A stretch of DNA of 64,000 nt from Rhodospirillaceae bacterium (GTDB lineage Bacteria > Pseudomonadota > Alphaproteobacteria > UBA6615): positions 1-64,000 of the forward strand of contig JABIVD010000022.1 in assembly GCA_018667335.1 (NCBI GenBank). The letters are read 5' to 3'. This document shows positions 7,298-44,600 of this stretch, piece after piece. Within the stretch, counting starts at the first letter, position 1. Every line of letters starts with the position of its first letter. The notes beneath the pieces were generated by a model. That model had not been told where the DNA came from, made no database searches, and saw nothing but the letters and a program-made list of their open reading frames with translations. Both the position numbers and the translations under genes were made by a program.

Positions 7298-8620
7298 ATG
7301 GCCCACCGTCCTGAACATGGGGCGGCGCCGGCCGACTATGTTGTCGTTGGCGCCAGCCACAAGACCAGCAGTGCCGCCTTGCGGGATCGATTGTTTATCG
7401 AGGACGCGGAGGCGCCCGCCGTGCTCGCCGCGCTGCAGCAGGGCGGATTTGATCAGGCGCTGGTGATCTCGACCTGCGATCGGGTCGAGTTCCATGGCGC
7501 GGCGACGGACTCTGATCGTGCTGTCAGTGCGGCAAGAGAGATATTGGGCCGGCGCGCGGACGGTGCAGCAGACGAGCTTTTTGACCTCAGGGGAATAGAG
7601 GCGGCGCGGCATGTGTTCGCGGTGGCGGCGAGCCTCGAGAGTGTCGTCGTGGGTGAATCCGACGTCCTCGGGCAGCTCAAATCCGCCCATGCCCGGGCGC
7701 GCGACGCGGGCGGCGTCGGCAGCGAACTCGAAAGCCTGATGCAGCACGCCTATGGGGCGGCCAAGGATGTCCGCGCGAACACGGCCATCGCCGAAGGGCC
7801 GGTATCCCTGGCGACGGCGGCCGTGCAGGCGGCGCGCAACCTGTTCGGCAGCCTGGATGACGTCTCGGCACTGCTCATCGGCCCGGCCGAGATGGGCATG
7901 CTGATGCTCGATCAGTTCCGGAATGGCGGCCTGCGGCGGGTCACCGTCGCGGCGGGCAACGCATCGCGCGGGCAGGCGTTGGCACGCATCGTCGAGGGTC
8001 ACAGCGTGACGTATGACGATCTTCCGGCGGCACTTGTCGGCGCGGACCTCGTGATCTGCGCAGCGGGGCTCGGGCGGCCGATGATCACGGCCGCCATGCT
8101 GCAGGACGCGCTGCGGGCGCGACGGCGCAAGCCGATCTTCGTGCTCGACGTGGCCATTCCCAATGATGTCGATCCGGAGATCGCCAGCCTGGAGGATGCA
8201 TTCCTGTACGACCTCGACCATCTGGAATCGATTTCGCGATCCAATCGCGAATCACGCGATGCGGCGATGGCCGAAGCGGGGCAGACCATCGAACGGCACA
8301 TCACAATGTTCCAGGCCGCACGGGCCGAACGCGATGCCGTGCCGGACGTGGCGGATCTGCGGGCGCATTTCGAAGCGGTTCGGGTCGAGGTTCTGGCAGA
8401 CAACCCCCAAGATGATGCCAACGAGATCACGCGGCGGCTGATCAATCGGCTGTTGCACGTGCCGTCCCAGACATTGCGTGCCGTGGCGCGCAACGCGGGC
8501 GGGGACAATCCCATGTCCGATGCGGCCCGGAACATGTTCGGGCTCGGCCCGGATACACAAGCGAAACAAGACCAACCGAAAACGGACGGCATTGCGCCGG
8601 CCGGGAGTGAAGACGAATGA
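7298..8620 (+). CDS. hemA: Glutamyl-tRNA reductase (C5 tetrapyrrole pathway)
   Basis: Reduces Glu-tRNA to glutamate-1-semialdehyde, the entry to haem by the C5 route. Family marks are [16 protein letters not shown] near the N-terminus, the catalytic Cys in ISTCDRVEF (STCNR in E. coli), the conserved His in [27 protein letters not shown], and the dimerisation helix near the end ([15 protein letters not shown]). The nucleotide-binding loop reads LLIGPAEMG where E. coli has LLVGAGETI, so the glycine-rich turn is altered. The order hemA-prfA-prmC matches gammaproteobacteria. Most Alphaproteobacteria instead use 5-aminolevulinate synthase, so this gene is unusual here. The stop overlaps prfA by four bases. 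Confidence 0.88.
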
Positions 8621-9705
8621 GCCTGGATGACAAACTAGATCGGGTGGTTGACCGCCACAGCCAACTCTCCGACCTGCTGGCGGCCACCGACGGCAGCGAT
8701 CCGCAGGAATATGTCAGGCTCTCGAAGGAGTATTCGGAGCTGGGCCAGGTGGTCGAGAAAGTGCTGGCGCTCCGCGGTGCGATCGAGGAGATCGTCGGCC
8801 TCGAGGAGATCATCGCGGATGGTGAGGCGGATGCGGAGATGAAGGAACTGGCCCAGCTCGAAATCGGCGAGCTGCGTGATCGTGTGCCCGCGTTCGAACA
8901 GTCGCTCAAGCTGATGCTGTTGCCGAAGGACGAGGCGGACACGAAGAATGCGATCCTCGAAATTCGCGCCGGGACCGGCGGCGATGAGGCCGCGCTGTTC
9001 GCCGGGAGCCTGTTCCGGATGTATCAGCGCTACGCCGAGACCAAGGGCTGGAAGGTCGAAGTGATGGATTCCAGCGCTACCGGCATCGGCGGTTACAAGG
9101 AAGTCGTCGCGAGCATCAGCGGCCAGGATGTGTTCTCGCGTCTGAAATACGAATCCGGTGTACACCGGGTGCAGCGGGTGCCCGAAACCGAGAGCAGCGG
9201 TCGCATTCACACATCGGCGGCGACTGTCGCGGTGCTCCCCGAAGCCGAGGAAGTCGATATCGACATCGCCGAGAATGAATTGCGGGTGGACACCTACCGC
9301 GCGTCCGGCCCGGGTGGGCAGTCGGTCAACACGACCGACAGCGCGGTTCGGATCACTCATATCCCGACCGGAATCGTGGTCACCCAGCAGGATGAAAAAT
9401 CTCAGCACAAGAACCGCGCCAAGGCGATGCGGGTTCTGCGCGCGCGATTGTATGAGCATGAGCGCCAGTTGATTGATTCAGAGCGCGCCGCGGCACGGCG
9501 CAGCCAGGTGGGTTCGGGCGACCGGTCCGAACGCATCCGCACTTATAATTTTCCCCAGGGCCGGGTAACCGATCACCGGATCAACCTGACCCTTCATAAG
9601 CTCGACCGTATTCTCGATGGGGAGGCGCTGGACGAATTGATCGATGCTCTGACCACCGAGGACCAGGCCGCCCAACTCGCCGAGGATGACAGCCCAGATG
9701 CCTGA
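8617..9705 (+). CDS. prfA: Peptide chain release factor 1
   Basis: Recognises UAA and UAG and triggers peptide release. The GGQ motif lies in [18 protein letters not shown], and the standard [16 protein letters not shown] segment precedes it. The 362-residue length is normal. Its ATG overlaps the hemA stop (ATGA), which implies translational coupling. prmC, which methylates the GGQ glutamine, begins inside its last codons. RF1 reads UAG, so it would be the competitor for any readthrough at the amber codon of the kinase at 24900. Confidence 0.97.
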
Positions 9706-21530: not shown

Positions 21531-22538
21531 TTGCAGATCGAACACCCATATCTGATGTTTCTTGGCGATGCGGCTGACCAGTTGGCCGCGAAAACCGCCC
21601 AGGGGATTGTGCATTGGCGCCGCGACTGGTGCCTTGGCCAGTTGCGCCTCGAGAACTGCAACGCCGACCTCGGCCTGCCCGACATGACGATCGAGGAGGC
21701 CGCTGCGGCCGGGGTGCGCACCCTGGTGATCGGGGTGGCCAACCGGGGCGGTGTCATCGGCGCGACCTGGGTTTCGACTATCCTCGCCGCGATCGAGGCC
21801 GGCATGGATGTCGCCTCGGGCCTGCATGCACGGATTGCCGATATCCCCGACGTCGCTGCCGCTGCTGCGGCAAACGGCGCGCAACTGTTCGATGTGCGCC
21901 ATCCCACACAGACCTTCGACGTGGGCACGGGTGCGCGCCGGTCCGGCAAGCGCCTGCTCGCAGTGGGGACGGATTGTTCGGTCGGCAAGATGTACACAGC
22001 CCTGGCGGTGGATGCGGAGCTGCGCCAGCGGCGCGTCGATTGCGATTTTCGCGCGACCGGCCAGACGGGAATTTTCATCGCCGGGTCCGGTGTCTCGGTG
22101 GACGCCGTTGTGTCGGACTTCATTTCGGGCGCGACCGAGTGGCTCGCGCCGGCCAATACGGATGATCACTGGGATCTGGTGGAGGGGCAGGGCTCGCTGT
22201 TTCATCCCTCCTATGCCGGGGTGACGATGGGCTTGGTTCATGGTGCCCAGCCCGACGCGCTGGTGTTGTGCCACGAGCCGACCCGGACCCACATGCGCGG
22301 CCTGCCGCACCAGGCTTTGCCGGACATCGGCGCCTGTATCGACGGGCATCTGGCGGCTGCTCGGCTGACCAATCCCGATGCGGTCTGCGTTGGGATTGCG
22401 GTCAACACCTCGGTCATGGACGGCGATGACGCGCGGGGTGATCTGCTGCGCAGCCTATCGGATCAATTCGAAATTCCCGCGCTCGACCCGGTCCGTGACG
22501 GCGTCGCGCCGATCGCGGATCGGCTGATGCAGCTCTAG
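21531..22538 (+). CDS. dgcN: D-glutamate N-acetyltransferase-like protein (DUF1611)
   Basis: DUF1611 proteins of the DgcN type acetylate D-glutamate. The partner DgcA racemises N-acetyl-D-glutamate, and this opens D-Glu to catabolism. The 335 residues have the family start (YLMFLGDAADQLAAKTAQGI), an LPDMTIEEAAAAGVRTLVIG block, and a P-loop-like GTDCSVGKMYTALAV. GQTGIFIAGSGVSVDAVVSD and VEGQGSLFHPSYAGVTMGL also fit. The TTG at 21531 after AAAGGGGAGA gives the expected N-terminus; no ATG fits upstream. dgcA starts four bases after the stop. Assignment rests on family plus pairing with dgcA. Confidence 0.85.
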   Translation: MQIEHPYLMFLGDAADQLAAKTAQGIVHWRRDWCLGQLRLENCNADLGLPDMTIEEAAAAGVRTLVIGVANRGGVIGATWVSTILAAIEAGMDVASGLHARIADIPDVAAAAAANGAQLFDVRHPTQTFDVGTGARRSGKRLLAVGTDCSVGKMYTALAVDAELRQRRVDCDFRATGQTGIFIAGSGVSVDAVVSDFISGATEWLAPANTDDHWDLVEGQGSLFHPSYAGVTMGLVHGAQPDALVLCHEPTRTHMRGLPHQALPDIGACIDGHLAAARLTNPDAVCVGIAVNTSVMDGDDARGDLLRSLSDQFEIPALDPVRDGVAPIADRLMQL

Positions 22539-22542
22539 CGCC

Positions 22543-23523
22543 ATGCTCGAACTGGACGCGCAGATCGAGACGTTTGCATTGCGACGGCATTTCACCATCT
22601 CGCGCGGCACCAAGACCGAAACGATCGTGGTGGTCGCCACCGTGAATGATGGGGACGTGGAGGGACGCGGCGAATGTGGCCCGAACGCGCGCTATGACGA
22701 GACACCGGAAAGTGTCGTCGGAGACATTCTGGCGATGGTGCCCGCGCTTCGCGGCGGCATGACACGGGCCGCGTTGCAGGATGCGATGGCCCCGGGCGCA
22801 GCGCGCAACGCAATCGATTGCGCGCTTTGGGACCACGAAGCCAGGGCGACGGGGACGCCGGCATGGGCGCTTGCGGGTCAGGCGGTGCTCAACCCGATCG
22901 TCACCGCATTTACACTGAGCGCCGACGGACCGGATGAAATGTCACGCGAAGCGGCGGCCAATTCCGACCGCCCGTTGCTCAAGCTGAAATTGACCGGTGG
23001 AGATGATCTCGCGCGGGTCCGGGCCGTGCGATCCGCAGCGCCCGACGCGCGCCTGATTGTGGATGCCAACGAGGCCTGGGAAGTCGCGACCTACCGGTCT
23101 TCCGTGCCCGCGTTTGTGGCGCTCGGTGTCGAGCTGATCGAACAGCCGTTTCCGGCTGGCGACGACGCGGCGCTCGCTGCGTTGGAGCGTCCGATCCCCG
23201 TCTGCGCGGATGAGGCCTTTCGCGACCGCACGAGCCTGCCCGGTCTGCGGGAGAAGTATGATTTCGTGAACATCAAGCTGGACAAGACGGGCGGGCTGAC
23301 CGAGGCGCTTGCCACGTCTGCTGCAGCGCGCGCGGCCGGGTTCGGCGTGATGGTCGGTTGCATGGTGGGCACCAGCCTGGGCATGGCGCCGGCCATGCTC
23401 GTGGCGCAGGGGGCGGATTTCGTGGATCTCGATGGCCCGCTGCTCTTGGCCCGGGATCGTGCGCCGGGCCTCACGATCGACGGCAGCACACTGTCATTGC
23501 CGTCCGCAGGATTGTGGGGCTGA
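22543..23523 (+). CDS. dgcA: N-acetyl-D-glutamate racemase / dipeptide-epimerase-like enolase-superfamily enzyme
   Basis: Enolase-superfamily protein of 326 residues. It has the catalytic lysine motif LLKLKLTGGD, metal ligands in IVDANEAW, ELIEQPFP and VCADEAF, and the second catalytic lysine in VNIKLDKTGGL. Alone it would be called an L-Ala-D/L-Glu epimerase. The four-base spacing to a DUF1611 gene makes the DgcA role (racemising N-acetyl-D-Glu) more likely. Both substrates come from peptidoglycan turnover or D-amino-acid uptake, which fits the divergent gamma-glutamyltransferase and nearby M23 peptidase. Confidence 0.87.
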   Translation: MLELDAQIETFALRRHFTISRGTKTETIVVVATVNDGDVEGRGECGPNARYDETPESVVGDILAMVPALRGGMTRAALQDAMAPGAARNAIDCALWDHEARATGTPAWALAGQAVLNPIVTAFTLSADGPDEMSREAAANSDRPLLKLKLTGGDDLARVRAVRSAAPDARLIVDANEAWEVATYRSSVPAFVALGVELIEQPFPAGDDAALAALERPIPVCADEAFRDRTSLPGLREKYDFVNIKLDKTGGLTEALATSAAARAAGFGVMVGCMVGTSLGMAPAMLVAQGADFVDLDGPLLLARDRAPGLTIDGSTLSLPSAGLWG

Positions 23524-23597: not shown

Positions 23598-24902
23598 ATG
23601 TCAGTATCGCAATACCGGGATTCACAAACGCCGAATCCGGATACGGAACATCCGTACGCCGAGCGTCTGACGCGTGCGCAGATGATCGCGCTGACGCGGC
23701 AATCCCGGCTCAGCAATATCGTGCCACCGATCAACAGCATCATTCTCGGTATCCTGTTGTGGGGAAATGTGCCGACCACGGCGCTGATCGTCTGGGTGGC
23801 CCTGGTCTGGGCATCGTCGGCGCTGCGGTGGCCAGTTTATCGGAGGTTCGATGCGAGGGTGGCCCTCGGGCGAGGTTATGAACTTCATTGGTGGAAGATC
23901 TGGGTCGGCGTGCATTTTGCCGCCGGTGTGGCCTGGGGGATCGGTTCGATCATCCTGTTCACTCAGGATAATTTTCTGATCCAGGCCTATCTCGTGATTT
24001 TTGTGTTGGGGATGGGCGCCGGGGCCACGGCAAGCTTCGCACCCTTCTTCCCGGCCCTTGTGGCCTACCTCGTACCGCTGACGGTGCCGATCGCCGCGAT
24101 CCTTGTCGTCCAGGAAAACACCGAAAGCACGGTCCTGGGCGTGTCGGGGTTCGTGTTTCTGGTCGCCCTCGTTTTCCTCGGACGCGCCGCCAACCGAGGC
24201 TTCTCGGAAAGCTTCAGGCTGGGTGTCGAGAACGAGAGTTTGTCCCGCGGACTGGAGCTGACCCAGTTTCGCCTTGAAGGAGCGCTCGACAGCATGTCCG
24301 AGGCGTTCGGATTGTTCGATCCCGACGACAATCTGATCGATATGAATGACAAGTTTCGCCAGTTCATTCCCCGGCAGGAACCTGATTCCACGCAACCGAT
24401 CACCTATGATCGATTCATCCGAAATCTGGCGGAGAGTGGCCGGGTCCAGGACGTCGCCGGGCGCTCGGAATCATGGATCGAGGAGTTAGTGCAGCTTCGT
24501 GAGGCGGGCAGCATGCCCATCGAAATTGTGATGGTGGACGGCACCTGGCTATTGCTGAACGACGAGCCGACCGACAATGGCGGCACCGTGACGACCCTGT
24601 CCGACATAACGGACATGAAGCGCAATCAAGTTGAATTGTCTGAAAGCGAACAGCGGTTTCGAGATTTCACCAGTGCCGCCTCGGATTGGGTGTGGGAACT
24701 CGATGCCGATGCCAGGTTTGTTCATATCGGCGGCCGTTATTCCGAAGTGTCGGGTCAGACGGAAGACAAATTGCTCGGGCGCAGGTTTCTCGACATGCCG
24801 TCGGAGGGTTCGCAAGAGGAATGGACTCGTCTGGTGGCGGGGATGGACGCGCGTCAGCCATTCCGCAATGTTCAGATGCAGCGCTCGCGCCAAACCGGCT
24901 AG
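23598..24902 (+). CDS. Multi-PAS sensor histidine kinase, N-terminal part, ended by an in-frame amber codon
   Basis: Membrane and first sensory part of a sensor kinase. About six membrane segments lie in residues 40-220 (IVPPINSIILGILLWG, LVIFVLGMGAGATASF, VSGFVFLVALVFLGRAA). PAS 1 follows (GALDSMSEAFGLFDPDDNLI), then most of PAS 2 (SEQRFRDFTSAASDWVWEL). Translation stops at TAG 24900-24902 in the middle of PAS 2, after RSRQTG. The same frame then continues without a break and completes the PAS fold (NYHFLLNGRPVFGALGQF). I chose the ATG at 23598. As it stands this product has no kinase domain. It is best read as the first half of one broken or recoded gene running to 26975. Confidence 0.8.
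   Translation: MSVSQYRDSQTPNPDTEHPYAERLTRAQMIALTRQSRLSNIVPPINSIILGILLWGNVPTTALIVWVALVWASSALRWPVYRRFDARVALGRGYELHWWKIWVGVHFAAGVAWGIGSIILFTQDNFLIQAYLVIFVLGMGAGATASFAPFFPALVAYLVPLTVPIAAILVVQENTESTVLGVSGFVFLVALVFLGRAANRGFSESFRLGVENESLSRGLELTQFRLEGALDSMSEAFGLFDPDDNLIDMNDKFRQFIPRQEPDSTQPITYDRFIRNLAESGRVQDVAGRSESWIEELVQLREAGSMPIEIVMVDGTWLLLNDEPTDNGGTVTTLSDITDMKRNQVELSESEQRFRDFTSAASDWVWELDADARFVHIGGRYSEVSGQTEDKLLGRRFLDMPSEGSQEEWTRLVAGMDARQPFRNVQMQRSRQTG
24900..24902 (+). other. Internal in-frame TAG splitting a histidine kinase gene
   Basis: The codon lies in the same frame as the two flanking open frames, with 31 sense codons between it and the next usable start. PAS homology runs straight across it. 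A single G-to-A change (TGG to TAG) would explain it, since an aromatic residue is common at this PAS position. Confidence 0.85.
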
Positions 24903-24995
24903 AACTACCACTTTCTGCTCAATGGCCGCCCGGTCTTTGGGGCTTTAGGTCAGTTTCTCGGCTACCGCGGCACCGGTACGGACATTACGGCCACG

Positions 24996-26975
24996 GTGCT
25001 GGCGGAAGAGCGGGCCCGGAAAGCGCAATCGCGTCTGTTCGATGCGATCGAATCAATTCCCGCCGGGCTCGTTCTGTTTGATGAGATGGGACGGCTGACC
25101 CTCTGGAACTCGCGGGCGCCGGAATATTTCCCCGGTGCGAGTTCGCGCATCGTTGCCGGCAGCACATTCGAGAACCTGATGCGCGGTTCTGCCGAGAACG
25201 GTGCTGTTGCAGATATCGGCGACCAGGCCGAGGAATGGATCGCGAGCCAGGCCGCCTGGTTCGAAAACCTCAACGAACGACGGGAAATGCATTTTTCGGA
25301 CGGTCGCCACGTTCAGCTTCTCGGTCGTGGAACATCCGACGGCGGCACTGTGTGTGTGATGACCGACATCACCGATATCCGGATGGGTCAGGAAGAGCTG
25401 GCGGAAAAGACGACGCTGCTACAGGCCACTCTTGAGGGTATGGGCGAGGGCCTGATCGTGCTCGATGCAGATCTTTGCGCCGTCCTGGCGAACACCCGTT
25501 TGGACCGTCTGGCTGTGTTCGGGGGTAGCCAGGACCTGGTCGGGCGGCCATTCCGCGAAATTCTTGAGTCGATTGGCGCGGATATTGGCCAGACCACGGA
25601 TGCGCCGGGCAATGTGGAGTCGGACAAGTCACTCAGTGAACGGCTCGCGGATGGGCTGCCGTTTCAATTCGAAATCGCCCGAACAGGCCGCCAGATCATG
25701 TTGGTGCGCGCCGACCCACTGGCGAATGGCGGCTGGGTTTGCGTGTTCACCGACATTACCGCCGAGCGGCGTGCAGTGGCGGCGTTGGCGGAAAGCGAGG
25801 ATCGCTATCGCCGGTTGATCGAGGCTTCACCGGATATGATTGCGGTCCAGGCGCAGGGCCGGATTTCCTTTGTAAACATTGCTGGTGCTCACCTGCTGGG
25901 CGCGGCGAGCGCCGACGAACTGGTCGGCCGCAGGGTGCTCGACTTTGTCCATCCCGACGATCATGAGGCGGTCCGCGGCTCGAAGCCTGTGCCTGGTTTC
26001 CACAACGACATGGAAGTTCACGAGTTCCGGGGACGGCGTGTCGATGGCTCCGTCTTTGAGGGTGAAGCAACCGGAATCGAGTTCGCCTATCAGGGTGAGC
26101 CCGCGGTGCTCGTGATCATTCGAGATATCAGCGACCGCAAGTTTGCGCAGGCCCAGCTGATCCAGACATCGAAATTGGCCCTGCTCGGCGAGATGGCCGC
26201 CAGCATGGCCCATGAGCTCAACCAGCCCCTGAACATAATCCGCATGGCGGCGGATGCCAGCCTCATCCTGATGGAAGAAGACAAGGCTGACATCGAGAAT
26301 CATCGCGAGGAGTTTGATCGCATCTCGAAGCAGAGCGAGCGTATGGCCGACATCATCAATCACATGCGGGTGTTCAGCCGGCAGGAAGATGGGTCTACAG
26401 GCAGCTTCAATCCGATTGAATGCGTGGATGCTGCCGCGTCAATGGTCCGCGAACAATATCGCCTTGATGGGATCGAAGTTCGCACCGTCCTTCCCAAGGT
26501 TGCGCCCCGGATCTCCGGTCAGCCCATCCGCCTGGAACAGGTTGTGCTGAACCTTCTCGCCAATGCGCGTGACGCTGTCTTCAGCCAAAAGGAGATGCTT
26601 GTGGATGGTGCGGGCGACCGGTCACGAATAGAAGGTGGTTTGATTGAAGTTTCCGCATTCGTCGCCAATGACCAGAATGATCCAGAGTCCCGCGAACGCC
26701 TTGAGGAATTGGTCATCAACGTCTCCGACAATGGCGGCGGCATACCCGAGGAAGATTTGAATCAGGTCTTCGAACCTTTCTTCACGACCAAGCGGGCCGG
26801 GCAGGGCACCGGTCTTGGTCTGGCGATTGGGTTCAGCATTATTTCTGCTATGGGCGGAACGATCTCTGTCGCCAATGGCGCGCGGGGCGCCGTTTTCGAA
26901 ATTCGGTTGCCCGTGGCTGAACCGGCGGCGGCGACGGAGCCGGAGATCCCACAAGATTCAGCGGCAGACCGTTAA
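24996..26975 (+). CDS. Multi-PAS sensor histidine kinase, C-terminal part (kinase core)
   Basis: Continuation, in the same frame, of the gene at 23598. It holds PAS 3 (RLFDAIESIPAGLVLFDEMG), PAS 4 (TLEGMGEGLIVLDADL) and PAS 5 (YRRLIEASPDMIAVQAQGRI). HisKA comes next with the phospho-accepting His in MAASMAHELNQPLNI. The ATPase domain has the N box QVVLNLLANARDAV, the G1 box VSDNGGGIPEEDL, and the G2 box GQGTGLGLAIGFSI. All kinase motifs are intact. The GTG at 24996 is the first possible start after the amber codon and has no ribosome site, so separate translation is doubtful. Two response regulators follow. Confidence 0.8.
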   Translation: MLAEERARKAQSRLFDAIESIPAGLVLFDEMGRLTLWNSRAPEYFPGASSRIVAGSTFENLMRGSAENGAVADIGDQAEEWIASQAAWFENLNERREMHFSDGRHVQLLGRGTSDGGTVCVMTDITDIRMGQEELAEKTTLLQATLEGMGEGLIVLDADLCAVLANTRLDRLAVFGGSQDLVGRPFREILESIGADIGQTTDAPGNVESDKSLSERLADGLPFQFEIARTGRQIMLVRADPLANGGWVCVFTDITAERRAVAALAESEDRYRRLIEASPDMIAVQAQGRISFVNIAGAHLLGAASADELVGRRVLDFVHPDDHEAVRGSKPVPGFHNDMEVHEFRGRRVDGSVFEGEATGIEFAYQGEPAVLVIIRDISDRKFAQAQLIQTSKLALLGEMAASMAHELNQPLNIIRMAADASLILMEEDKADIENHREEFDRISKQSERMADIINHMRVFSRQEDGSTGSFNPIECVDAAASMVREQYRLDGIEVRTVLPKVAPRISGQPIRLEQVVLNLLANARDAVFSQKEMLVDGAGDRSRIEGGLIEVSAFVANDQNDPESRERLEELVINVSDNGGGIPEEDLNQVFEPFFTTKRAGQGTGLGLAIGFSIISAMGGTISVANGARGAVFEIRLPVAEPAAATEPEIPQDSAADR

Positions 26976-26993: not shown

Positions 26994-27353
26994 ATGGCAA
27001 GCATTCTAATTGTCGACGATGAACCGGAAGCGACCGCCACATTGGCGAAATTTCTCGAAACACGTGGCTATAAAACAGAGACCGCGGCGAATGGTTCGGA
27101 GGCGCTCGAGCTGGTTCGCGCAATGCAGTACGATGTGGTGATGATGGATCTGCGCATGCCGGGCATGGATGGCGCAGATTTTCTTGCGTGCGTGCGGCTG
27201 GAGCAGCCGCAACTTCCGATCGTGGTTATGACGGGGCATACCAATCTCGGTGGTCAGGACGAAGTCTGGGCTCGCGCCGGCGTCAAGGCGGTGATGCTTA
27301 AACCGTTGAATTTAAGAGAAGTTTCTGAAATGGTTTATGAGCTTCTGGCCTGA
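26994..27353 (+). CDS. Single-domain response regulator
   Basis: 119-residue receiver with no output domain. The acidic pocket is ILIVDDEPEA, the phospho-acceptor Asp52 lies in MMDLRMPGMDG, Thr in VVMTGHTN, and Lys in VMLKPLNL. It begins 18 bases after the kinase stop and is presumably its direct partner. It probably acts by protein contact or as an intermediate in a phosphorelay with the next receiver. Confidence 0.92.
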   Translation: MASILIVDDEPEATATLAKFLETRGYKTETAANGSEALELVRAMQYDVVMMDLRMPGMDGADFLACVRLEQPQLPIVVMTGHTNLGGQDEVWARAGVKAVMLKPLNLREVSEMVYELLA

Positions 27354-27473: not shown

Positions 27474-27884
27474 ATGGCAGGTATTGCAGCCACAACCCCC
27501 TCGGGTGACAGCCGCCAGCGGCCGCTGGTGATGATCGTCGACGACGATCGCGAACAGGCCGAGCAGATCGCGACCTTCCTTTCGCGGTTCGGGATTTCTG
27601 TCACTCAGGAAGACAACGGCTTCGCTGCGGTGAACACGATGCGCCGGGATAGACCCGCGGTGGTGATCATGGACGTGCGCATGCCGGGCCTGGACGGAAT
27701 TAAGGCGGCCCAACTCGCGGCCAACCTTGATTACAAGCCGAAGATTATTCTGATGTCGGGTTACGCGGATCAGGTGAAGCGGGCGACCGAAGAAGGTCTT
27801 GATGTCTTCGCGGTTGTTGACAAGCCTTTGCCGCTCCGTGTTTTGGTGCGGTTCGTTCAGAACGCCCTGAACGACCAGGAATAA
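27474..27884 (+). CDS. Second single-domain response regulator
   Basis: 136-residue receiver with a 17-residue polar N-terminal extension. Pocket VMIVDDDREQ, phospho-acceptor Asp67 in VIMDVRMPGLDG, Ser in ILMSGYAD and Lys in VVDKPLPL. It is 120 bases after the first regulator and may have its own promoter. Its stop is three bases from the stop of the convergent Mla-operon lipoprotein. It differs clearly from the first receiver, so it is not a recent copy. Confidence 0.9.
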   Translation: MAGIAATTPSGDSRQRPLVMIVDDDREQAEQIATFLSRFGISVTQEDNGFAAVNTMRRDRPAVVIMDVRMPGLDGIKAAQLAANLDYKPKIILMSGYADQVKRATEEGLDVFAVVDKPLPLRVLVRFVQNALNDQE

Positions 27885-34995: not shown

Positions 34996-35119
34996 CGCTT
35001 GTCAATTTGGCTGCTGCGCCTCTTGCCATTGGCCGGGGTGCGGTGTATCACCCGCCCCTGTCGTGGACGGAAGACCGGAGACGGGCTGCCGCCGACGACG
35101 CTGAAACCCGTATCAGGTG

Positions 35120-35194
35120 GGGCGCGTAGCTCAGCGGGAGAGCACTGTGTTGACATCGCAGGGGTCGCTGGTTCAATCCCAGCCGTGCCCACCA
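35120..35194 (+). tRNA. tRNA-Val(GAC)
   Basis: Full cloverleaf with encoded CCA. Acceptor GGGCGCG pairs with CGTGCCC (one G-U); D stem GCTC/GAGC; anticodon stem CTGTG/CGCAG with GAC at 35152-35154; T stem GCTGG/CCAGC with loop TTCAATC. Discriminator A at 35191, then CCA. Confidence 0.96.
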
Positions 35195-35210
35195 TTTTCC
35201 TCTTGTTGAG

Positions 35211-35231
35211 CTTGGCCGACGCGCGGCCAAG
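35211..35231 (+). terminator. Hairpin after tRNA-Val
   Basis: Perfect eight-base inverted repeat CTTGGCCG / CGGCCAAG with a five-base loop, 17 bases after the tRNA CCA. No T-run follows, so it may be a processing or weak termination signal. Confidence 0.4.
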
Positions 35232-35328
35232 GCGCTGATGCCGGACGCCCGGCGGATCATGTCCGGCCATCCCGTTGGGCGCCGCAATAGGGTGCCGCGA
35301 TGACCGCGACCGTAAAGAAGATCTATCC

Positions 35329-36483
35329 ATGCACCTGATGGTCGTCCTGGAAGACCGAATTTCCGAATGGGACGCCAAGGGCGAGATCCTGGACGGCTAT
35401 TTCAATCCCGCCGGGGCCTTCGATAGCGTGACGGTCCTTGGTCTGGTGGATGACCGGCCGGACGAAGCGACGATCGCGCGTCTATGCGCTCCGGCACGCC
35501 ACCGCTACTTGAATGCCGGCATCGACCGTCGGGAATTGATGTTTGCGACGTTCGGGCTGCGCCCGGGCCGGCTTGCGTCATGGTTGGGGCGTCTCACCGG
35601 AGACGTGGCGTCGGATCCGCCCGACATTGTGCGGGCCTATGGCGACGGCCTTGCGGCGGTCGCGGCCGCCGTGATTGGCCGCGCGGCTCAAATACCCTAT
35701 GCCGTGAGCATTCACACGACCCCCGATCCACAGATCCAGTCGCGATATCTCGGCGCGCGGGACCGCCTGTGGCGACGTCTTCTGGAACCATCGGTCCATC
35801 GGGCGCTGCGCGACGCGGGTGCGGTCATGGCGGTATACGCGCCAATACGTGATTATCTTCCGGCCGACATCGCGGAGAAGGCAGTCGTGGTGCCCAATGT
35901 GGTTGGAATCGGCGCACGGGAGACCGTTGGCCCATCGGGCAGCGGACCGATGCAGGCACTTTGGCTGGGTCGTCAGATGCCTGGCCGCGACCCCCGGCCG
36001 ATCATTGCGGCGCTGAACGTGACGCCGAATGTCGAATTAACGCTCGTCGGCGATGGCCTGCTTCATGATGCCGCGCGTCGCATGGTCGAAGACACCGGGC
36101 TGGAGCGCCGGACCACATTCATTCGGGCCATAGAAAATCGCGAACTGTGCGCGAAGTTGCCGGCTTACGACGTGTTGGTCGTGAACAGCGCCTTCCGGGA
36201 AATGCCCAAAACCGTCATGGAAGCCACATTGTCCGGCCTGCCGGTCATCGTTAATCGCTTGCCTGCAGCGGAGTCGCCGGAATATTCAAACTTGCCGGTT
36301 TTGTTCGTGGACGCAGACTCCGGTTCCTATGCGTCGGCGCTGCGGGATTTGGAGAGCAATTCGCGGAAACGGATCACGCTCGCCCGGGCAACGCAGGATG
36401 CGGCATGGCAATTGTGGGATCCGGACAAAGTCGCTACGCAAACGGCGGACATATTGCGCGCGCTCGTAACGGGCGCGCATTGA
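35329..36483 (+). CDS. Glycosyltransferase (GT4-like), polysaccharide locus
   Basis: 384-residue GT-B-fold sugar transferase. The C-terminal nucleotide-sugar domain has MQALWLGRQMPGRDPRPIIA, VELTLVGDGLLHDAARRM, and the acceptor/donor-binding region PKTVMEATLSGLPVIVN. No signal or membrane segment is seen. I start at the ATG at 35329, seven to eight bases after AAAGAAG. wecB follows after 24 bases on the same strand. It is likely to add a sugar to the surface polysaccharide made by this locus; donor and acceptor are unknown. Confidence 0.85.
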   Translation: MHLMVVLEDRISEWDAKGEILDGYFNPAGAFDSVTVLGLVDDRPDEATIARLCAPARHRYLNAGIDRRELMFATFGLRPGRLASWLGRLTGDVASDPPDIVRAYGDGLAAVAAAVIGRAAQIPYAVSIHTTPDPQIQSRYLGARDRLWRRLLEPSVHRALRDAGAVMAVYAPIRDYLPADIAEKAVVVPNVVGIGARETVGPSGSGPMQALWLGRQMPGRDPRPIIAALNVTPNVELTLVGDGLLHDAARRMVEDTGLERRTTFIRAIENRELCAKLPAYDVLVVNSAFREMPKTVMEATLSGLPVIVNRLPAAESPEYSNLPVLFVDADSGSYASALRDLESNSRKRITLARATQDAAWQLWDPDKVATQTADILRALVTGAH

Positions 36484-36507
36484 GGTTTCGATGACCGAGG
36501 ATGTTGC

Positions 36508-37635
36508 ATGTCGGGTTTGGTGATTTTCGGGACCAGACCCGAGGCGATCAAGCTTGCGCCGATGGTCGCGAATATTCGCGGCGCACAACCCGCCATCGAT
36601 ATTGGCGTTGTGTGCACCGGCCAGCATGCCGAGATCATGACGCAGACGTTGAACGCGCTCGATCTCGTGGTCGATGAGAACTTGAATCTCATGCAGCGCG
36701 ACCAGACCCCGATGGAGGTGGTCGAGCGCACCATCGTCAGCCTGACGGAACGATACGCCAGCGAACGTCCGGACTGGGTTTTGGTGCAGGGCGATACGGC
36801 GACGGCGTTTGCCGGCGCGCTCTTCGGGTATCTCGGGGAGAGCACCGTTATTCACCTTGAGGCCGGCCTGCGCACGCACGATATCCACGAGCCGTGGCCG
36901 GAGGAGGGCTTCCGGCAGGAAATCGCGCGCCTGGCAGGCCTTCATCTGGCGCCCTATCCATGCGCGCGCGAGAATCTGCTGAATGAGGGCATCGAGCCGG
37001 ACAGCATCCAGGTCATCGGGAACAGTGGCCTCGACAGCCAGGACGGGATGCTGGCGCAGATCGCGGACGACGATACGGCATGGCTGCCGAACGGGGACTT
37101 CGTGCTGGTCACATTGCACCGGCGTGAAAATCTCGGGGAGCGCCTCGAGGCAACATGTCGTGAACTTATTTCCACTCTGGATGCATATCCCGATCTTCAA
37201 ATTCTCTGGCCGGTCCATCCCAACCCCAAGGTTCGGAGCACTGCCTTCGAGTTCTTCGGTGACCGGAAGGACCGGGTAATGTTGAGTGAGCCATTGGATT
37301 ATCCGAAGTTTCTCCATGCACAGCGGGCCGCAAAATTTGTGGTGTCGGATTCCGGTGGGGTCCAGGAAGAGGCCGCCTCTCTCGGAACCCGGGTCGCGAT
37401 TGTGCGAGAAAAAACCGAACGACCCGACGCTGTGGATCTCGGGCTGACGCGTATCGTCGGCGCAGATGCGACGGGTCTCGTCGACGCGGTGAATGATTTC
37501 ATGGCGACGCCGGTCGATCCGGTCTCTGTGGCGAAATGGCGTGCGTTACAAGGCAACGGGAACGCCGGCGCGGCAGCAGCGACAGCGCTGCTGAATAAGA
37601 TCGAGGCTGATCAGGCGGTCCGCCAACGGGCCTGA
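36508..37635 (+). CDS. wecB: UDP-N-acetylglucosamine 2-epimerase (non-hydrolysing)
   Basis: Interconverts UDP-GlcNAc and UDP-ManNAc, a precursor for ManNAc-containing surface glycans. Motifs: LVIFGTRPEAIKLAPMV, VLVQGDTATAFAGALFGY, VIHLEAGLRTHDIHEPWPEE, VIGNSGLDSQDGMLAQ and SDSGGVQEEAASLG. 375 residues is normal. The family usually has PFPEE where this one has PWPEE. No ManNAc dehydrogenase (wecC) is visible, so ManNAc itself may be the sugar used. Its 3' end overlaps the convergent flippase gene by 25 bases. Confidence 0.93.
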   Translation: MSGLVIFGTRPEAIKLAPMVANIRGAQPAIDIGVVCTGQHAEIMTQTLNALDLVVDENLNLMQRDQTPMEVVERTIVSLTERYASERPDWVLVQGDTATAFAGALFGYLGESTVIHLEAGLRTHDIHEPWPEEGFRQEIARLAGLHLAPYPCARENLLNEGIEPDSIQVIGNSGLDSQDGMLAQIADDDTAWLPNGDFVLVTLHRRENLGERLEATCRELISTLDAYPDLQILWPVHPNPKVRSTAFEFFGDRKDRVMLSEPLDYPKFLHAQRAAKFVVSDSGGVQEEAASLGTRVAIVREKTERPDAVDLGLTRIVGADATGLVDAVNDFMATPVDPVSVAKWRALQGNGNAGAAAATALLNKIEADQAVRQRA

Positions 37636-39074
37636 AGAAATGCCGTGATCCCGCTCGCTGCCAGATAGCTGACGAGGAACGCCCCCGCGAAATGCCACGG
37701 TTGCAGGCCCGAGGGGTTCACCGCCAGATACATCAAAGCAAGCACGCCGATCCCTGCTGCGAGGGCGATGGCCGAACGCTGCGTTACACGCGGCGGCAGC
37801 AGTTGTGGTCCCAGTCCTTGCTGGCCGGCCTTCAACACCACGGATAGGGCGAAGCCCATACGTGCCGCCGCCACGGAAATCGCGGTGCCGAGCAGGCCGA
37901 TCTCCGGCAGGAGGATCACGATACCCGCGACCGCGACGATGCCCCACGCCAGCGATGTCCACATCAGGAAAACTGCCTTGCCGGTGATGTACAGATAATA
38001 CTCCCACGGCGTGGCGGATTGATTCACAAACACGGCCAGGACGAGGACGCTCATCGTCGTCGGCGAGATGCGGAAAGTTTCGCCCACGGCGAGAGTGAGA
38101 ATTTGCGCACCGAGGATGGCGAGCAAGACGGCGAGCGGTGTGCCCCAGGCAATGAAGTTTCCGAATAGCCGATGGGTCACTGCAAGTGCATCCGCTGGCG
38201 CATTGTTGGCCATGGCGCGGGCCATGCGCGGATAGAGCAGCCACCAATAGGGTGCCCCCCAGGACGCGAGAATCGCGATCAGTGTCTGAGCGGCGACATA
38301 GCGCCCCACCGTGTCGGCACCGGCCAGGCTGCCGACCAGGACGCGATCGACGAGCCCCATGAGAGCCTCGCCCAGGCCGGCGATCATAAATGGAATGCCC
38401 AGGGCGAGGGCCGACCGGATGCCGGACAAGGGGAGTATCGCGAACTGAGCCGGGCGAATGCGCTGCGACAGCACAAAATCCGCGCCGGCGCACAGGAAGA
38501 AGGCAAATTTGATCGCCGCTATGATCGAGATCGCGGCAACGGGTGTCAGGCCATCGAGGGCTGCCAGAACGACAACAGCCAAAAGAGAAGCCGCGGATTC
38601 GGCGATTTGAAGCAGTGTCGCAGACCGGACTCTGTGACGCGCGCGCAACGCCTCGAACAGCAGTGACTGCCAAGCCGCGATGGGGAGCAAAACCGCTGCC
38701 GTGCGAACCAGTGCGGGAGCCGCCGGGTGGTCGGAGAAATGGATCGCGATCGAGTTGGCTGCGGTCCACATGATGATGGCGAGGATCAATGAGACGACTG
38801 ACGCGATCACGAAGGCCGTGGCGACCGGGGCCGCGATATCTTCCGTCGCGCTGGCGCCCGCGATTTGACGGATGACCGCAAAGCCAAGGCCGAGCAGGAC
38901 TATCGGGACGAGCACCGCAACCAGTGCCTGGGTCTGCGAATAGCCACCAAATCCGTCTGCAGCCAGCCACCGCGCCAACAGGACCGCCATGACGAGTGCG
39001 GCTCCCTTGGTCATCCCCTCGGCCATGAATCGCAGCATGAGATCGCCGTCGATCCGGTGCCGTCCGATCATCAT
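37611..39074 (-). CDS. Polysaccharide flippase (Wzx/MATE-like)
   Basis: Integral membrane protein of 487 residues with about 12-14 helices. It resembles lipid-linked-oligosaccharide flippases of the polysaccharide biosynthesis family (ALVMAVLLARWLAADGFGGY at the start, GLVDRVLVGSLAGADTVGRY mid-protein). It moves the repeat unit across the inner membrane before polymerisation or ligation. The ATG at 39074 lies one base after the methyltransferase stop; a TTG at 39104 would add ten residues. Last gene of the minus-strand polysaccharide operon. Confidence 0.88.
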   Translation of the reverse strand: MMIGRHRIDGDLMLRFMAEGMTKGAALVMAVLLARWLAADGFGGYSQTQALVAVLVPIVLLGLGFAVIRQIAGASATEDIAAPVATAFVIASVVSLILAIIMWTAANSIAIHFSDHPAAPALVRTAAVLLPIAAWQSLLFEALRARHRVRSATLLQIAESAASLLAVVVLAALDGLTPVAAISIIAAIKFAFFLCAGADFVLSQRIRPAQFAILPLSGIRSALALGIPFMIAGLGEALMGLVDRVLVGSLAGADTVGRYVAAQTLIAILASWGAPYWWLLYPRMARAMANNAPADALAVTHRLFGNFIAWGTPLAVLLAILGAQILTLAVGETFRISPTTMSVLVLAVFVNQSATPWEYYLYITGKAVFLMWTSLAWGIVAVAGIVILLPEIGLLGTAISVAAARMGFALSVVLKAGQQGLGPQLLPPRVTQRSAIALAAGIGVLALMYLAVNPSGLQPWHFAGAFLVSYLAASGITAFLQARWRTA

Positions 39075-39075
39075 G

Positions 39076-39822
39076 TCAGGACATCCCGCCGTCTCGACGG
39101 GCAACGATGTACCAGCGTTCCGCCAAACCGGGCAGGCGGCGGGAGACGGCGGCGTCCCACCCGGGGTTTGTCTCGCTGCCTCGGGTTCGTTTGATCAATC
39201 CCGGGAGCCGCTGCAATCCCGGTGCAAGCAAGAATTGGGAGAGCACGCCATGGGCTTCCATCGAAATGATCTCCAGCCCATTTTGTTCGAGGAACCTGCG
39301 CGCCTGCTTTGCGGAATGGCCGAAGACACCGTTGAATCCGCGCCGGCGATAGTAGCGACGCCAATATTTTATCGCGAGCGATCGGGACCCTGCGATATCG
39401 ACGATCAAAGTGCCACCGGGCCGCAACAATCCCGCCATCTCGGCAAGTGAGGCCTCCTGATCCCGCGGCGACAGCAACAGCAATGTCGAAAAACAATAGA
39501 TGAGATCGAAGCTGGTTTCGGTCAGCGGCAATCGGGGCAGGGCGGCCGCGCAGGGCAGAACTGTGCCGTCGAGATCACGCGCGTCGGCGCGTTGGACGAG
39601 CCGCGCGAGCATCTGCTCGCTCGGGTCGACGGCGACCACGTCCAGCCGCCTGGCGATCTCGAGAGCATGGCGACCGTTGGCGGAACCAATGTCGGCCACG
39701 ATGCCGGTCTCTGGCGCATGGGTATCGATCAGAGTCCATTTCCGGGTCTGGATATAATCCGCCCCGATGTGGGTCGGATATTCCGCCGCCTCGCGATCGA
39801 AATGCGCCGCGATGTCCCTCAC
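39076..39822 (-). CDS. Class I SAM-dependent methyltransferase
   Basis: 248 residues with the SAM-binding motif I GIVADIGSANGRHALEIA, acidic VVAVDPSEQM, and post-motif LIYCFSTLLLLSPRD (Methyltransf_11 type). The C-terminal half is basic (KYWRRYYRRRGFNG). In a polysaccharide operon the usual role is methylating a sugar or a lipid-linked intermediate. The GTG start overlaps the preceding stop by four bases (GTGA). Confidence 0.87.
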   Translation of the reverse strand: MRDIAAHFDREAAEYPTHIGADYIQTRKWTLIDTHAPETGIVADIGSANGRHALEIARRLDVVAVDPSEQMLARLVQRADARDLDGTVLPCAAALPRLPLTETSFDLIYCFSTLLLLSPRDQEASLAEMAGLLRPGGTLIVDIAGSRSLAIKYWRRYYRRRGFNGVFGHSAKQARRFLEQNGLEIISMEAHGVLSQFLLAPGLQRLPGLIKRTRGSETNPGWDAAVSRRLPGLAERWYIVARRDGGMS

Positions 39823-40898
39823 GCATCCCCCATGTCGTCGCTCCGGCGCGCCGATCTGAAAAGCTCCAGCAGGGCGGCGATCATCGGCCGGGGTGTCAGT
39901 GTGCCGCGATAGTAGGGCGCGAGCTCGCCGCCAAACCCCTTCTTGAAATCACTGATGCGGCGTCGTTTTCCGGCAGGCGCGCCGGGGAAGGCCTCGCCAC
40001 ATTCGTATCCGGCGAGATCCCGCGCTGCGAACGCCTTGATCGCGTGCCACTGGACCAGATCATTTGCACCGCTTGTCAGGGCCGTCTCGTCGCTGGCCAC
40101 GACCCAATAGAGGGCATTGTTTTTGTAGACCGCAAAGATATGGATCGCGATCGTTCGGCCGTCCGGTGCGACAGCGCAAAACCCCGTCGCCAGGCCGCAC
40201 GCCAAGAAATTATCGAATATGGCGTCAAAATAGGCCGCCGGCTTGGCCGGCAGGCCATTGCGCAACGAGGCGCCCTGATGAAGACGCAGGAAGTCTGCCC
40301 GGTCTTCCGGCACGACATCGCGGACGGTGAACCCGCCACGCTCGGCCTTGTTGACAGTTTTGCGAACACGATGCTCGAGATTGCGCCAAAGCTCGTCCTC
40401 GCTGCGTTCCGCAAGGTCGAGAATCCAGCTCTGGGTCGAGGCGTCGGCACAGCCGAGCAAGGCAAGCGGATTGACACCGGTGACCCCGGCGTCCCGTCGG
40501 GCCGGCGCGAGGGGCGCCATGGCCAGCTCGACCCGATGCGCGCCTTCGCTTTTCGCGAGACTCAGCAGGCCGGCGCGCACATCGCGTTCGGTGTGGGTGC
40601 GTTGGCGTGGAGACAGCGCCGGTGAATAGGCGGGCCCGCCGGTGGATTCCAGCCGGCAGGTCAGTCGCTGTGCCGGCCAGCGGCCCAGGACGCGGCGCAT
40701 GGGGATCAGCGCGACGGGCTGGTTCGTCGTTGGGTCCAGAAGTGCGAAGCTGACGTCTGTGGTGTTCGGCCAGGTGGCATAAGCTTCGATGGCTTCCCAG
40801 CGATGCCAGATCCAGGCGTCAGGAAACAGGTCCGCTGACCGGTTCCATTCTTCGATTCCGGTGTCCGGACGCGAGACAAGATTTAAGTTTGAACCCAC
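39819..40898 (-). CDS. FemAB/GNAT-like acyltransferase of the polysaccharide operon
   Basis: 359 residues. The C-terminal two thirds resemble the FemAB-related GNAT fold: RVRKTVNKAERGGFTVRDV, a long helix-strand core, GLATGFCAVAPDGRTIAIHI, and GANDLVQWHAIKAFAARDLA near the end. FemAB-like proteins use aminoacyl-tRNA or acyl donors to attach amino acids or acyl groups; in exopolysaccharide loci they may decorate the sugar. GTG at 40898 follows GAGAGGG at good spacing; the frame stays open far upstream, into the O-antigen ligase gene, but that part is antisense-like and rejected. Confidence 0.78.
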   Translation of the reverse strand: MGSNLNLVSRPDTGIEEWNRSADLFPDAWIWHRWEAIEAYATWPNTTDVSFALLDPTTNQPVALIPMRRVLGRWPAQRLTCRLESTGGPAYSPALSPRQRTHTERDVRAGLLSLAKSEGAHRVELAMAPLAPARRDAGVTGVNPLALLGCADASTQSWILDLAERSEDELWRNLEHRVRKTVNKAERGGFTVRDVVPEDRADFLRLHQGASLRNGLPAKPAAYFDAIFDNFLACGLATGFCAVAPDGRTIAIHIFAVYKNNALYWVVASDETALTSGANDLVQWHAIKAFAARDLAGYECGEAFPGAPAGKRRRISDFKKGFGGELAPYYRGTLTPRPMIAALLELFRSARRSDDMGDA

Positions 40899-40921
40899 GA
40901 TCAACCCTCTCGTGGAAATAC

Positions 40922-42235
40922 TTACTCGCTTGTTCGCGGTCCCGCCAACCCGGCACTGGCGCCGAGGAGGTAGACGAAGACGAAGTGGGCCCAATGATAG
41001 CGAAATACCGAGCTGTCCACTGTCTGATGAACGAACAGCGCGATGAGCAACGAGATAACAGCGATTTCGGTGGCTGTGATATCCCGGCCTCGGCTCGTGG
41101 TTCTGAAAACCGGATGGAACCAGCAGGCAAGAACCAGGACCATCCCGACGACCCCGGTTTCGAGGAGCATCGATAAAGGGACGGAATGTGCAGCAGTCTC
41201 GAGATCGAGGGGGCCGTATACCGCCTCCTGGGTCAAACCAAAGCCCACCCCCGACGTCCAGACATCGCCAATAAACTGCATGGCTATGAGCCACACATGG
41301 GCGCGCTCGCGGAGTTCAAGGACCTCGTTGGTCCCGGGGTCGGGAGACGCGCCCGTGATCCAGGTTGTTGCATACAACGCCAATGCGAGGCCGATGACGA
41401 TGATCGCGCAGGCACGCGTCGCTCCAAGGCGGTCGGTCCGCAGAAGAACAACGATGAATATGCCGGTCAGTGCCATGGCAATCGCAGCCCGGGACACCGA
41501 TGCGAAGACCAGCATGGCAACAACGCCCACAGTCAGGATGATCGCGGCCCCAAGTAAGTTTCGTCGGGGTTTGACGATGGCGCAAAGTGAAATGAGGGCG
41601 ATGGCGGCGAACAGCCCCATGCTGTTGGGGTTTGATGTCAAACCGGAGAACCGGGGAATGTAGATCCTGTGGTCCATAAATTGGTATGGCCGCCCGCCTT
41701 GCGCGGTTCCAATTGTCCATCCGTCCAGATCGATTAGAAGACGACCAAGTGCCGTTACGCCCCCGGTGTCCAGGTTGTGGAAAACCAACACGATCACCGT
41801 GAAGGCCGTAGAGGTGAGCGCGATGACGACCACCAGCGCAGTGAACCAGAGAAATGTCTGCTGCGGTCGCGGGTCGCGCGCGGCCAGCGCACACAATAGA
41901 ATCCCGGGTGCGAATACGAGCAGCCAGCGCCGCAGGCCGGTGATGGGGTCGTCCGCCCACAACAGGGTCACGGCTGCCCAGCCCGCGATCAGTATCAATG
42001 GGACAACACCGCGAAAATTCACGAAAAGGCGGGTGCGCAGGAGCAATGCCGCGCCGCCAAGCGCGATGAGTTGAAGCCCCAGTACCATTGTTGGCGGTGG
42101 TGATACGAAGCCCTCGGAATTGTAGTAGCCGAGGAACCCGACCAGGCTAACCAGCAAGGCGAACCAGGTTAACCCGCGAGCCCAGATATCAAGTCTGGTC
42201 TCACGCCGGTTTTCATCATCATATGACATCGTCAC
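40922..42235 (-). CDS. O-antigen ligase / polymerase family membrane protein
   Basis: 437 residues with about 11-12 helices and the Wzy_C/O-antigen-ligase pattern. Features include a large periplasmic loop in the second half (TSGVGFGLTQEAVYGPLDLE then AAHSVPLSMLLETGVVG), where the conserved His of the family lies, and SGLTSNPNSMGLFAAIALI. It either polymerises repeat units (Wzy) or ligates them to lipid A core (WaaL); sequence alone cannot decide. The GTG start overlaps the upstream glycosyltransferase stop (GTGA). Confidence 0.87.
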   Translation of the reverse strand: MTMSYDDENRRETRLDIWARGLTWFALLVSLVGFLGYYNSEGFVSPPPTMVLGLQLIALGGAALLLRTRLFVNFRGVVPLILIAGWAAVTLLWADDPITGLRRWLLVFAPGILLCALAARDPRPQQTFLWFTALVVVIALTSTAFTVIVLVFHNLDTGGVTALGRLLIDLDGWTIGTAQGGRPYQFMDHRIYIPRFSGLTSNPNSMGLFAAIALISLCAIVKPRRNLLGAAIILTVGVVAMLVFASVSRAAIAMALTGIFIVVLLRTDRLGATRACAIIVIGLALALYATTWITGASPDPGTNEVLELRERAHVWLIAMQFIGDVWTSGVGFGLTQEAVYGPLDLETAAHSVPLSMLLETGVVGMVLVLACWFHPVFRTTSRGRDITATEIAVISLLIALFVHQTVDSSVFRYHWAHFVFVYLLGASAGLAGPRTSE

Positions 42236-43467
42236 GCCGGACCGGCGTTTGACGCGATCACCTGGTCCAGAATGTCGCGGAAGCGGCGACCGATCCGGTC
42301 TATCGCGTACGCGTCCCGCGCCGCATCCGATTCTTCTGCCTTTGTCGCGTTGACGCCCTGGATGGCATCGACCATTGCGGCGGCGACTTCGGACGGATCG
42401 TCGGGGCTGACCGACCAGCCTCCGATACGATCGATCAGGTCTTTCGTGGGGCCTTCCGGTGTGATTGCGAAGATCGGGCGCTGGGTGCCCAGATAGTCAA
42501 CAATCTTCGATGTCAGAAATATTGAGCGCGAGGCCATCGGTGCGTCGCTGATCACCAGCAGGTCGAAATTTTTCATGCGGGCGAGCGCGTCGGTATGGGG
42601 GAGGACGCCGCTATGCGAGACATGTTTTGTCGCGCCGGGGTAGTTGGCGAGTTCACGTTTGAAGGCCTCGCCACCCAGTCCGAAGACCTCGAGCGTGAAC
42701 TCAGGTGACGCTGCATTGCCTGCAACATGCTCGACCGCATCGAGGATCAGCCGCGGTGTTCTCGGGCCGTAAAACGTCCCGAACATGCCGAGCCGGATTG
42801 TCTTCGATGCCGGTGTGGCGGTTTGTTCGCCATAGAGCGTCTGGTCGAATCCGTGGGGTATGATGTGGCTCTTTTCTGCGATCGCAATACCCGAGTTCAG
42901 CGCCGCGAAATGGTCCCGCATGTCTGCGGTGGGAAAGACCAGCGCGTCGGCCTCACGCAAGACCCGGCGTTCCAGATTGCGGCTCCACGATGACATCAGC
43001 GGAACCTGGCGTTCATAGGTGCCGCCCGACCACGGGTCCGAAAAACAGGCAACCCAGGGCAGGTCGGGATGACGCCGCTTCAGGCGGCGTCCCGCAGCGT
43101 GGACGGAATGATATTGTGAACGCGTCACCAGGCAATCATATCCGTCGGGTTGCATGGCCTCCGCACGGGCCGTGGTCGCGCGTGAAAGCATGAGATACCG
43201 ATCAGGCCGTATGGGCAGGCGCGATATTTTCCCCAGCAACCGAAACAGCCCACCGTCGATCCGCTCAATGCGTCCGAAACGGGATTCGACATACGCGTCG
43301 AGACTGTGATCGGCGGGTTGTGCGAACAGATGCGGTGATGCGGTCACGACATCGACCTCGGCCGCCGGAATGGCGGACATGGTCTTGGATGACACGAATG
43401 CCTCGGGGCTGGCGACCGGCGGAAAACAATAGCCGAGACACAGGATGCGCATTCTGGAGTCAGCCAT
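42232..43467 (-). CDS. Glycosyltransferase (GT4-like)
   Basis: 411-residue GT-B-fold transferase. N-terminal MRILCLGYCFPPVASPEAFV, with the typical glycine/proline-rich donor-side turn; PWVACFSDPWSGGTYE; C-terminal domain IRLGMFGTFYGPRTPRLI, FGLGGEAFKREL, and VDYLGTQRPIFAITPEGPTK. This architecture is common in glycosyltransferases of surface-polysaccharide clusters. ATG at 43467 overlaps the deacetylase stop by eight bases. Confidence 0.87.
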   Translation of the reverse strand: MADSRMRILCLGYCFPPVASPEAFVSSKTMSAIPAAEVDVVTASPHLFAQPADHSLDAYVESRFGRIERIDGGLFRLLGKISRLPIRPDRYLMLSRATTARAEAMQPDGYDCLVTRSQYHSVHAAGRRLKRRHPDLPWVACFSDPWSGGTYERQVPLMSSWSRNLERRVLREADALVFPTADMRDHFAALNSGIAIAEKSHIIPHGFDQTLYGEQTATPASKTIRLGMFGTFYGPRTPRLILDAVEHVAGNAASPEFTLEVFGLGGEAFKRELANYPGATKHVSHSGVLPHTDALARMKNFDLLVISDAPMASRSIFLTSKIVDYLGTQRPIFAITPEGPTKDLIDRIGGWSVSPDDPSEVAAAMVDAIQGVNATKAEESDAARDAYAIDRIGRRFRDILDQVIASNAGPA

Positions 43468-44347
43468 GCCGGGCCTCGCCAAGCAGCGATGCGAAGTCTC
43501 CGGCGGAGTAAGGTGCAAAGCGCGTAAGCATTGCGAGAACATCTTCGTCGGCCGCGACGTCGGCCGGGTCCAGATAGATGTTGAGCAGTCCCGGTTGATC
43601 CGCCTCCATCGATGCCAGATAGGCCCGCAATTCGTCGAGCAGGCGACGCGATGTGCCGTCGCCGCCGCGTATCAATCCCCAGCTGTCGAGTATCTGTCCC
43701 GGTTCGCTAAGGCATCCGCTCACGGGAAATTCGATGATACCCGCACGCGTAAAGAAAGGCCCGTACCGCAAGCCGAACAGAGGCCGGGTGGAGCTTGAGT
43801 AGCGATACCCGAGTTCGGACAGGAACTGCCAGAGCGCGACCAGATCGCGGGGGCTCTCGAAACTCGCGAAATGCGGGGTTCGAAATCCATTGGGGCGTTG
43901 GTCGAGAATGTCACCAATTGCCTCGTCGCCCCGACGAATGTCGTCTTGCCAGTCCGCCCTGGACACCGCGCCATAGAAATATGTTGAGGCCACGTCGCCG
44001 GAGGCAGGGTCGATCTCGGCATGGCGGCGAAAGCCATGGTTGAGGAACACGGCCCCATCCTGAGCAATTGCGCGGTAGTCGTCGGCTGACGCGGCCAGCA
44101 CTTCGCCGGCGACCGCATACAGGGGCGACAGGCCGCCCGACCGGAGCCTTGCATGCATCGCGCCGACCACGGCGCTGTCGGCATCGGTGTCGCAATCGAA
44201 GGACAGAATGAAGTGAGGCTGTCGCAAGCCCGCCCGCCGCGCGAGCGCAACGCTGCGCGTCACGGCCCGTTGCGGGCGCCACCGACTATAGGCCCAGGCC
44301 CAGGCGAGCCCGGGATCGCGCGCGGCCTTAGCGAGCTTGTCGATCAT
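43460..44347 (-). CDS. Polysaccharide deacetylase-family protein
   Basis: 295 residues of the NodB/polysaccharide-deacetylase (CE4-like) fold. FILSFDCDTDADS carries the metal-binding Asp pair at the start of the fold, VFLNHGFRRHAEIDP the His region, and NGFRTPHFASFESPRD the second conserved block. First gene of the minus-strand polysaccharide operon. It could remove acetyl groups from GlcNAc/ManNAc sugars, which fits wecB in the same locus. I chose the ATG at 44347; homology does not extend further upstream. Confidence 0.83.
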   Translation of the reverse strand: MIDKLAKAARDPGLAWAWAYSRWRPQRAVTRSVALARRAGLRQPHFILSFDCDTDADSAVVGAMHARLRSGGLSPLYAVAGEVLAASADDYRAIAQDGAVFLNHGFRRHAEIDPASGDVASTYFYGAVSRADWQDDIRRGDEAIGDILDQRPNGFRTPHFASFESPRDLVALWQFLSELGYRYSSSTRPLFGLRYGPFFTRAGIIEFPVSGCLSEPGQILDSWGLIRGGDGTSRRLLDELRAYLASMEADQPGLLNIYLDPADVAADEDVLAMLTRFAPYSAGDFASLLGEARHG

Positions 44348-44600
44348 GGGCAATCGGGCTGTGGGAGACGCAAAATTCAGACATTGGTGCACCTGGGCTC
44401 TTCGCGATGGAATTCCGCCATCGTGGACAGCCAGTGTTGTTGGTAGATCGTCGAACGGATTGTACGTGATTCTGGTGCAGTACCGGGATGTTCGTCGATC
44501 GACGGTAAGCGCGCATTCGTGGACTCCCTCATATTCAGCGCCATAGACTGTCGTTTGCGCGTGGCGGCACGGGTGGGTGACACAAAAGGGGGGTTGCACG

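Follow-up and report, generated by a model that had tools for sequence, protein, structure and literature searches.

The sensor histidine kinase frame at 23598-26975 (+ strand) runs for 1125 codons plus its stop, and has a single internal stop, the TAG at 24900-24902. This raises the question of whether the gene has recently been inactivated, whether the stop is an error in the sequence, whether the codon is read through or recoded, or whether two genes are in fact encoded here. The window that we analysed is a stretch of 64,000 nucleotides (contig C62, positions 1-64000) from a draft genome of 62 contigs, 3.55 Mb and 96% completeness. The kinase locus itself has the following parts:

23598-24902, + strand: sensor histidine kinase gene, 5' part (434 residues); membrane region, PAS_7 and the first part of PAS 2; homologues extend beyond its end
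24900-24902, + strand: amber codon TAG, codon 435; the relatives' residues at this column are Q, G, E, N, E and E
24903-26975, + strand: sensor histidine kinase gene, 3' part (690 residues); the rest of PAS 2, more PAS domains, HisKA and HATPase_c; its own start is unconvincing

Upstream of the TAG, Pfam searches revealed a PAS_7 domain at residues 230-344 and, at residues 360-414, the first half of a PAS_4 domain. Downstream of it we observed PAS_7, PAS, HisKA and HATPase_c, every one exceeding the curated cut-offs; HisKA scored 48.6 bits (cut-off 26.9) and HATPase_c 75.7 bits (cut-off 26.4). The H box in HisKA and the N and G boxes in HATPase_c were intact in the translation of the 3' part. 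The original prediction of a frame open apart from one TAG, with homology on both sides and with intact PAS, HisKA and ATPase motifs around the stop, was thus confirmed (by the translation, Pfam, the readable boxes and the relatives). The sensor and kinase domains are not in one translated frame; the TAG stands between them. A predicted structure of the PAS 2 region had a mean pLDDT of 44, too poor for use.

The original prediction had also proposed an alignment to close relatives, and this showed an uninterrupted kinase frame in G005 and G006 (other species of the same genus, 80% and 78% amino acid identity) and in G022 (a species of another genus, 60%). These orthologues are single frames of 1115-1120 residues. 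Since the homologues cross the position of the stop in one uninterrupted frame, the two halves form one gene rather than a chance arrangement, and the amber codon must be a change in the lineage of this genome. The codons at the stop column in six relatives were CAG (Gln), GGG (Gly), GAG (Glu), AAT (Asn), GAG (Glu) and GAA (Glu). The column is therefore variable, and TAG was present in none of the relatives compared. A recent TGG-to-TAG mutation had been suggested; a recent mutation is indeed the best fit, but a TGG ancestor is unsupported, as the relatives carry Q, G, E or N. No other close copy of the kinase gene was found in the same genome (the best other match was 38% identical). A second genome of the same species was not found either: a viral contig search gave no relative, and a scan of genome contigs gave other species. 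In G011, which belongs to another genus, the HATPase linker of the kinase orthologue (G011:C2:1413956-1419326) is frameshifted at a point that lies between the N box and the G1 box. This may be an independent breakage, and loss of this kinase gene may recur.

The genes on either side of the kinase were as follows:

21531-22538, + strand: DUF1611 gene (DgcN-like), intact (PF07755/PF17396)
22543-23523, + strand: mandelate racemase/dipeptide-epimerase-like gene (DgcA-like), intact (PF13378/PF02746)
26994-27353, + strand: single-domain response regulator 1, intact (PF00072); orthologues adjacent in G005 and G006
27474-27884, + strand: single-domain response regulator 2, intact (PF00072); 95% identical to G005/G006

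The order DgcN-DgcA-kinase-receiver-receiver is common to this genome, G005 and G006. As the original prediction had noted, two response regulators still follow the kinase, and both are intact. Each has a ribosome site of its own (-5.0 and -7.0 kcal/mol), and they may therefore act with other kinases. Further along the window, about 9.5 kb at 35100-44600 have no counterpart in G006 (about 1 kb there); this segment begins beside a tRNA-Val(GAC) gene (35120-35191) and looks like an inserted island.

We further estimated the selection on the two halves of the kinase with a codon model of four species and a separate rate for the branch of this genome; synonymous sites were near saturation, and the values are rough. 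Upstream of the TAG, omega was 0.106 on this branch vs 0.134 on the others. Downstream, it was 0.085 vs 0.050 elsewhere, and this difference was not significant (2dlnL 3.19). The likelihood profile of the downstream omega gave an approximate 95% range of 0.05-0.16, and omega=1 was rejected (2dlnL 16). If a constrained rate of 0.05 is assumed, the upper limit of 0.16 leaves room, by our arithmetic, for neutral evolution over no more than roughly one tenth of this branch. For most of the branch, purifying selection on the sequence after the stop has been strong. Hence the 3' half was functional until recently or still is; either the stop is young or tolerated, or the assembly created it.

These observations suggested that the gene probably carries a recent loss-of-function nonsense allele, an ordinary one that is neither recoded nor switchable. 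A gene for a membrane-bound multi-PAS sensor histidine kinase would recently have gained an amber mutation in PAS 2. Translation would end at residue 434, and the product would keep the membrane region and PAS 1 but have an incomplete PAS 2. As this predicted product has neither the phosphoacceptor nor the ATPase domain, it could not phosphorylate the two adjacent receivers. The 3' part, lacking a start of its own, would be a relic too young to have decayed. We infer that the change sits in the organism's own DNA rather than in its assembly, and that readthrough can be neglected. Two limits apply to the nonsense-allele reading: it comes from one genome of the species, and the downstream omega is not significantly above that of the other branches.

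We then considered whether the stop could stem from faulty sequencing or assembly, or from a minority allele in the consensus of a draft that is probably metagenome-assembled, with an intact gene in the organism. In favour of this, the genome is in 62 contigs and is the only one available for its species, the relatives with titled records are metagenome-assembled genomes, and the constraint downstream of the stop is intact. To place the stop against its background, G006 proteins were compared with contigs C62, C11 and C10 of this genome (564 kb), covering about 106,000 codons in 301 orthologous genes. The flagged stops were for the most part shadow frames or extensions at the upstream end, and such stops in high-identity genes were set aside once the identity before and after them had been compared. 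Only the kinase and msrP (methionine sulfoxide reductase catalytic subunit), two of the 301 genes, had a genuine internal stop flanked by high identity on either side, and both stops were TAG. The msrP TAG (G000:C62:73345-73347) lies about 48 kb from the kinase stop on the same contig; it removes the last 50 or so residues, and the codon is TGG (Trp) in 5/5 other genus members. Both stops fall on C62 (2 of its 72 genes vs 0 of 229 elsewhere; hypergeometric p ~0.06), which also favours an error. However, there were just two such stops in about 106,000 codons, and the genuine genes of the contigs sampled showed no clear frameshift, which indicates that the consensus is generally clean. An error is less likely than a real nonsense allele, but is the next best reading. 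In the reverse control, no genuine internal stop was seen in G006 among the high-identity cases inspected. As a load for 301 genes, two internal stops are modest and unremarkable. That both are TAG is probably not very surprising, since TGG and CAG, each one step from TAG, are common codons in a genome of this kind. On the minus strand at G000:C62:81623, a gene ends (TAG) 12 codons before the end of its G006 orthologue, and 10 of the 12 following residues match.

Functional readthrough, in which near-cognate tRNAs decode the amber codon and yield some full-length kinase in a lowered and possibly regulated amount, would explain the purifying selection on both sides of the TAG. At such a variable column (Q/G/E/N) any inserted residue would probably be tolerated, and the position is compatible with low-level readthrough. 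It has also been argued that bacteria often read through in-frame stops (PMC7918605). The stop is, however, conserved in no relative, and the second TAG, that of msrP, replaces an invariant Trp, as random mutation predicts. We also examined how the genome uses TAG. It ends 113 of 292 sampled orthologous genes (39%), vs 133 of 298 (45%) in G006, and is a main terminator here. Release factor 1 reads UAG and UAA, and its gene is intact in the window:

8617-9702, + strand: prfA, peptide chain release factor 1, intact; TIGR00019, 513 bits (cut-off 423), no internal stop

We searched for the amber suppressor tRNA that the original prediction had raised. No CTA anticodon was present among 41 tRNA matches (39 ARAGORN calls and two others, irregular or cut, that were inspected by eye), in a draft tRNA set that is incomplete (tRNA-Tyr, for example, is missing), nor did any true tRNA emerge when the genome was searched by pattern for arms with a CTA anticodon. 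Together with the terminal use of TAG and the intact release factor 1, this makes suppression by a dedicated tRNA very unlikely. At G000:C46:86682 the TCTA plus T-loop pattern matched not a CTA tRNA but a tRNA-Arg(TCT)-like sequence of which the 3' half is present without the 5' half, as at the attachment site of an integrated element. At G000:C19:486-562 we observed a tRNA-Val(CAC)-like sequence in whose D arm about 20 bases seem to have been inserted, and which has no ARAGORN call. With the stop unconserved, release factor 1 intact, TAG in general use as a terminator and no suppressor tRNA found, functional readthrough is unlikely. Rather improbable, too, is that the amber codon is a tolerated stop with low readthrough, where little full-length kinase is made, two-component signalling is tuned down by termination and the gene is kept.

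A genuine split into two proteins, a PAS protein in the membrane and a soluble PAS-kinase with its own start, would require a start in the 3' part. The original prediction that this part has no ribosome site held for the codons right after the TAG, where the sites are weak (-1.5 to -3.2 kcal/mol). The strongest internal site-like sequence (-8.2 kcal/mol) precedes the GTG at 25458, and none of the internal starts carries a convincing site. This site, together with the whole domains kept in both halves, favours a split. Against it, the cut falls inside PAS 2, GTG 25458 lies inside another PAS domain, and none of the relatives examined has two separately started genes at this point. A scan for sigma-70 promoters found none inside the kinase gene. 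We consider a genuine split very improbable. The suggestion that the pathway is switchable found no support, as no short repeat or inverted repeat was present at the stop, and phase switching by repeats was rejected. Finally, amber recoding or a dedicated suppressor tRNA, although both genuine internal stops are TAG and tRNA-Tyr is among the tRNAs not found in the draft, is excluded in practice by the terminal use of TAG, the intact release factor 1 and the absence of a CTA anticodon from the tRNA matches, and the two TAGs replace different residues (a variable polar one and Trp).

The nonsense-allele reading has some simple implications. Should the stop be genuine, one sensory input is gone from the species, or from the population sampled, and both adjacent receiver genes are still intact; on a small scale, this would be a two-component pathway in the course of being lost. 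The stop says nothing new about the genetic code. Automatic annotation would report two proteins at this locus.

When we compared the locus with known systems, we observed that it resembles amber-recoded genes (pyrrolysine or amber-suppressor tRNA systems) in having an in-frame TAG within a conserved frame, but differs from them in its release factor, tRNAs and terminators, as described above. It is closer to the membrane-bound multi-PAS sensor histidine kinases, with PAS_7/PAS repeats, intact HisKA and HATPase_c boxes and receivers encoded alongside. The best full-model resemblances in NCBIfam were to AtoS, CckA, FixL and NahK/ErcS', all far under the curated cut-offs. Unlike the named multi-PAS kinases, it is claimed by no curated family, its PAS 2 is interrupted and it lacks a receiver domain. 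Stops within bacterial reading frames are widespread and mostly short-lived (Belinky et al. 2021, PMC7918605). Those cases were required to be present in at least two genomes as a guard against sequencing errors, whereas the kinase stop is seen in one. It nevertheless shares with such nonsense-interrupted genes and young pseudogenes the single in-frame stop, the homology and purifying selection on either side, the relatives without the stop and the low genome-wide frequency, and in these respects the kinase stop fits the picture drawn by Belinky et al. (PMC7918605).
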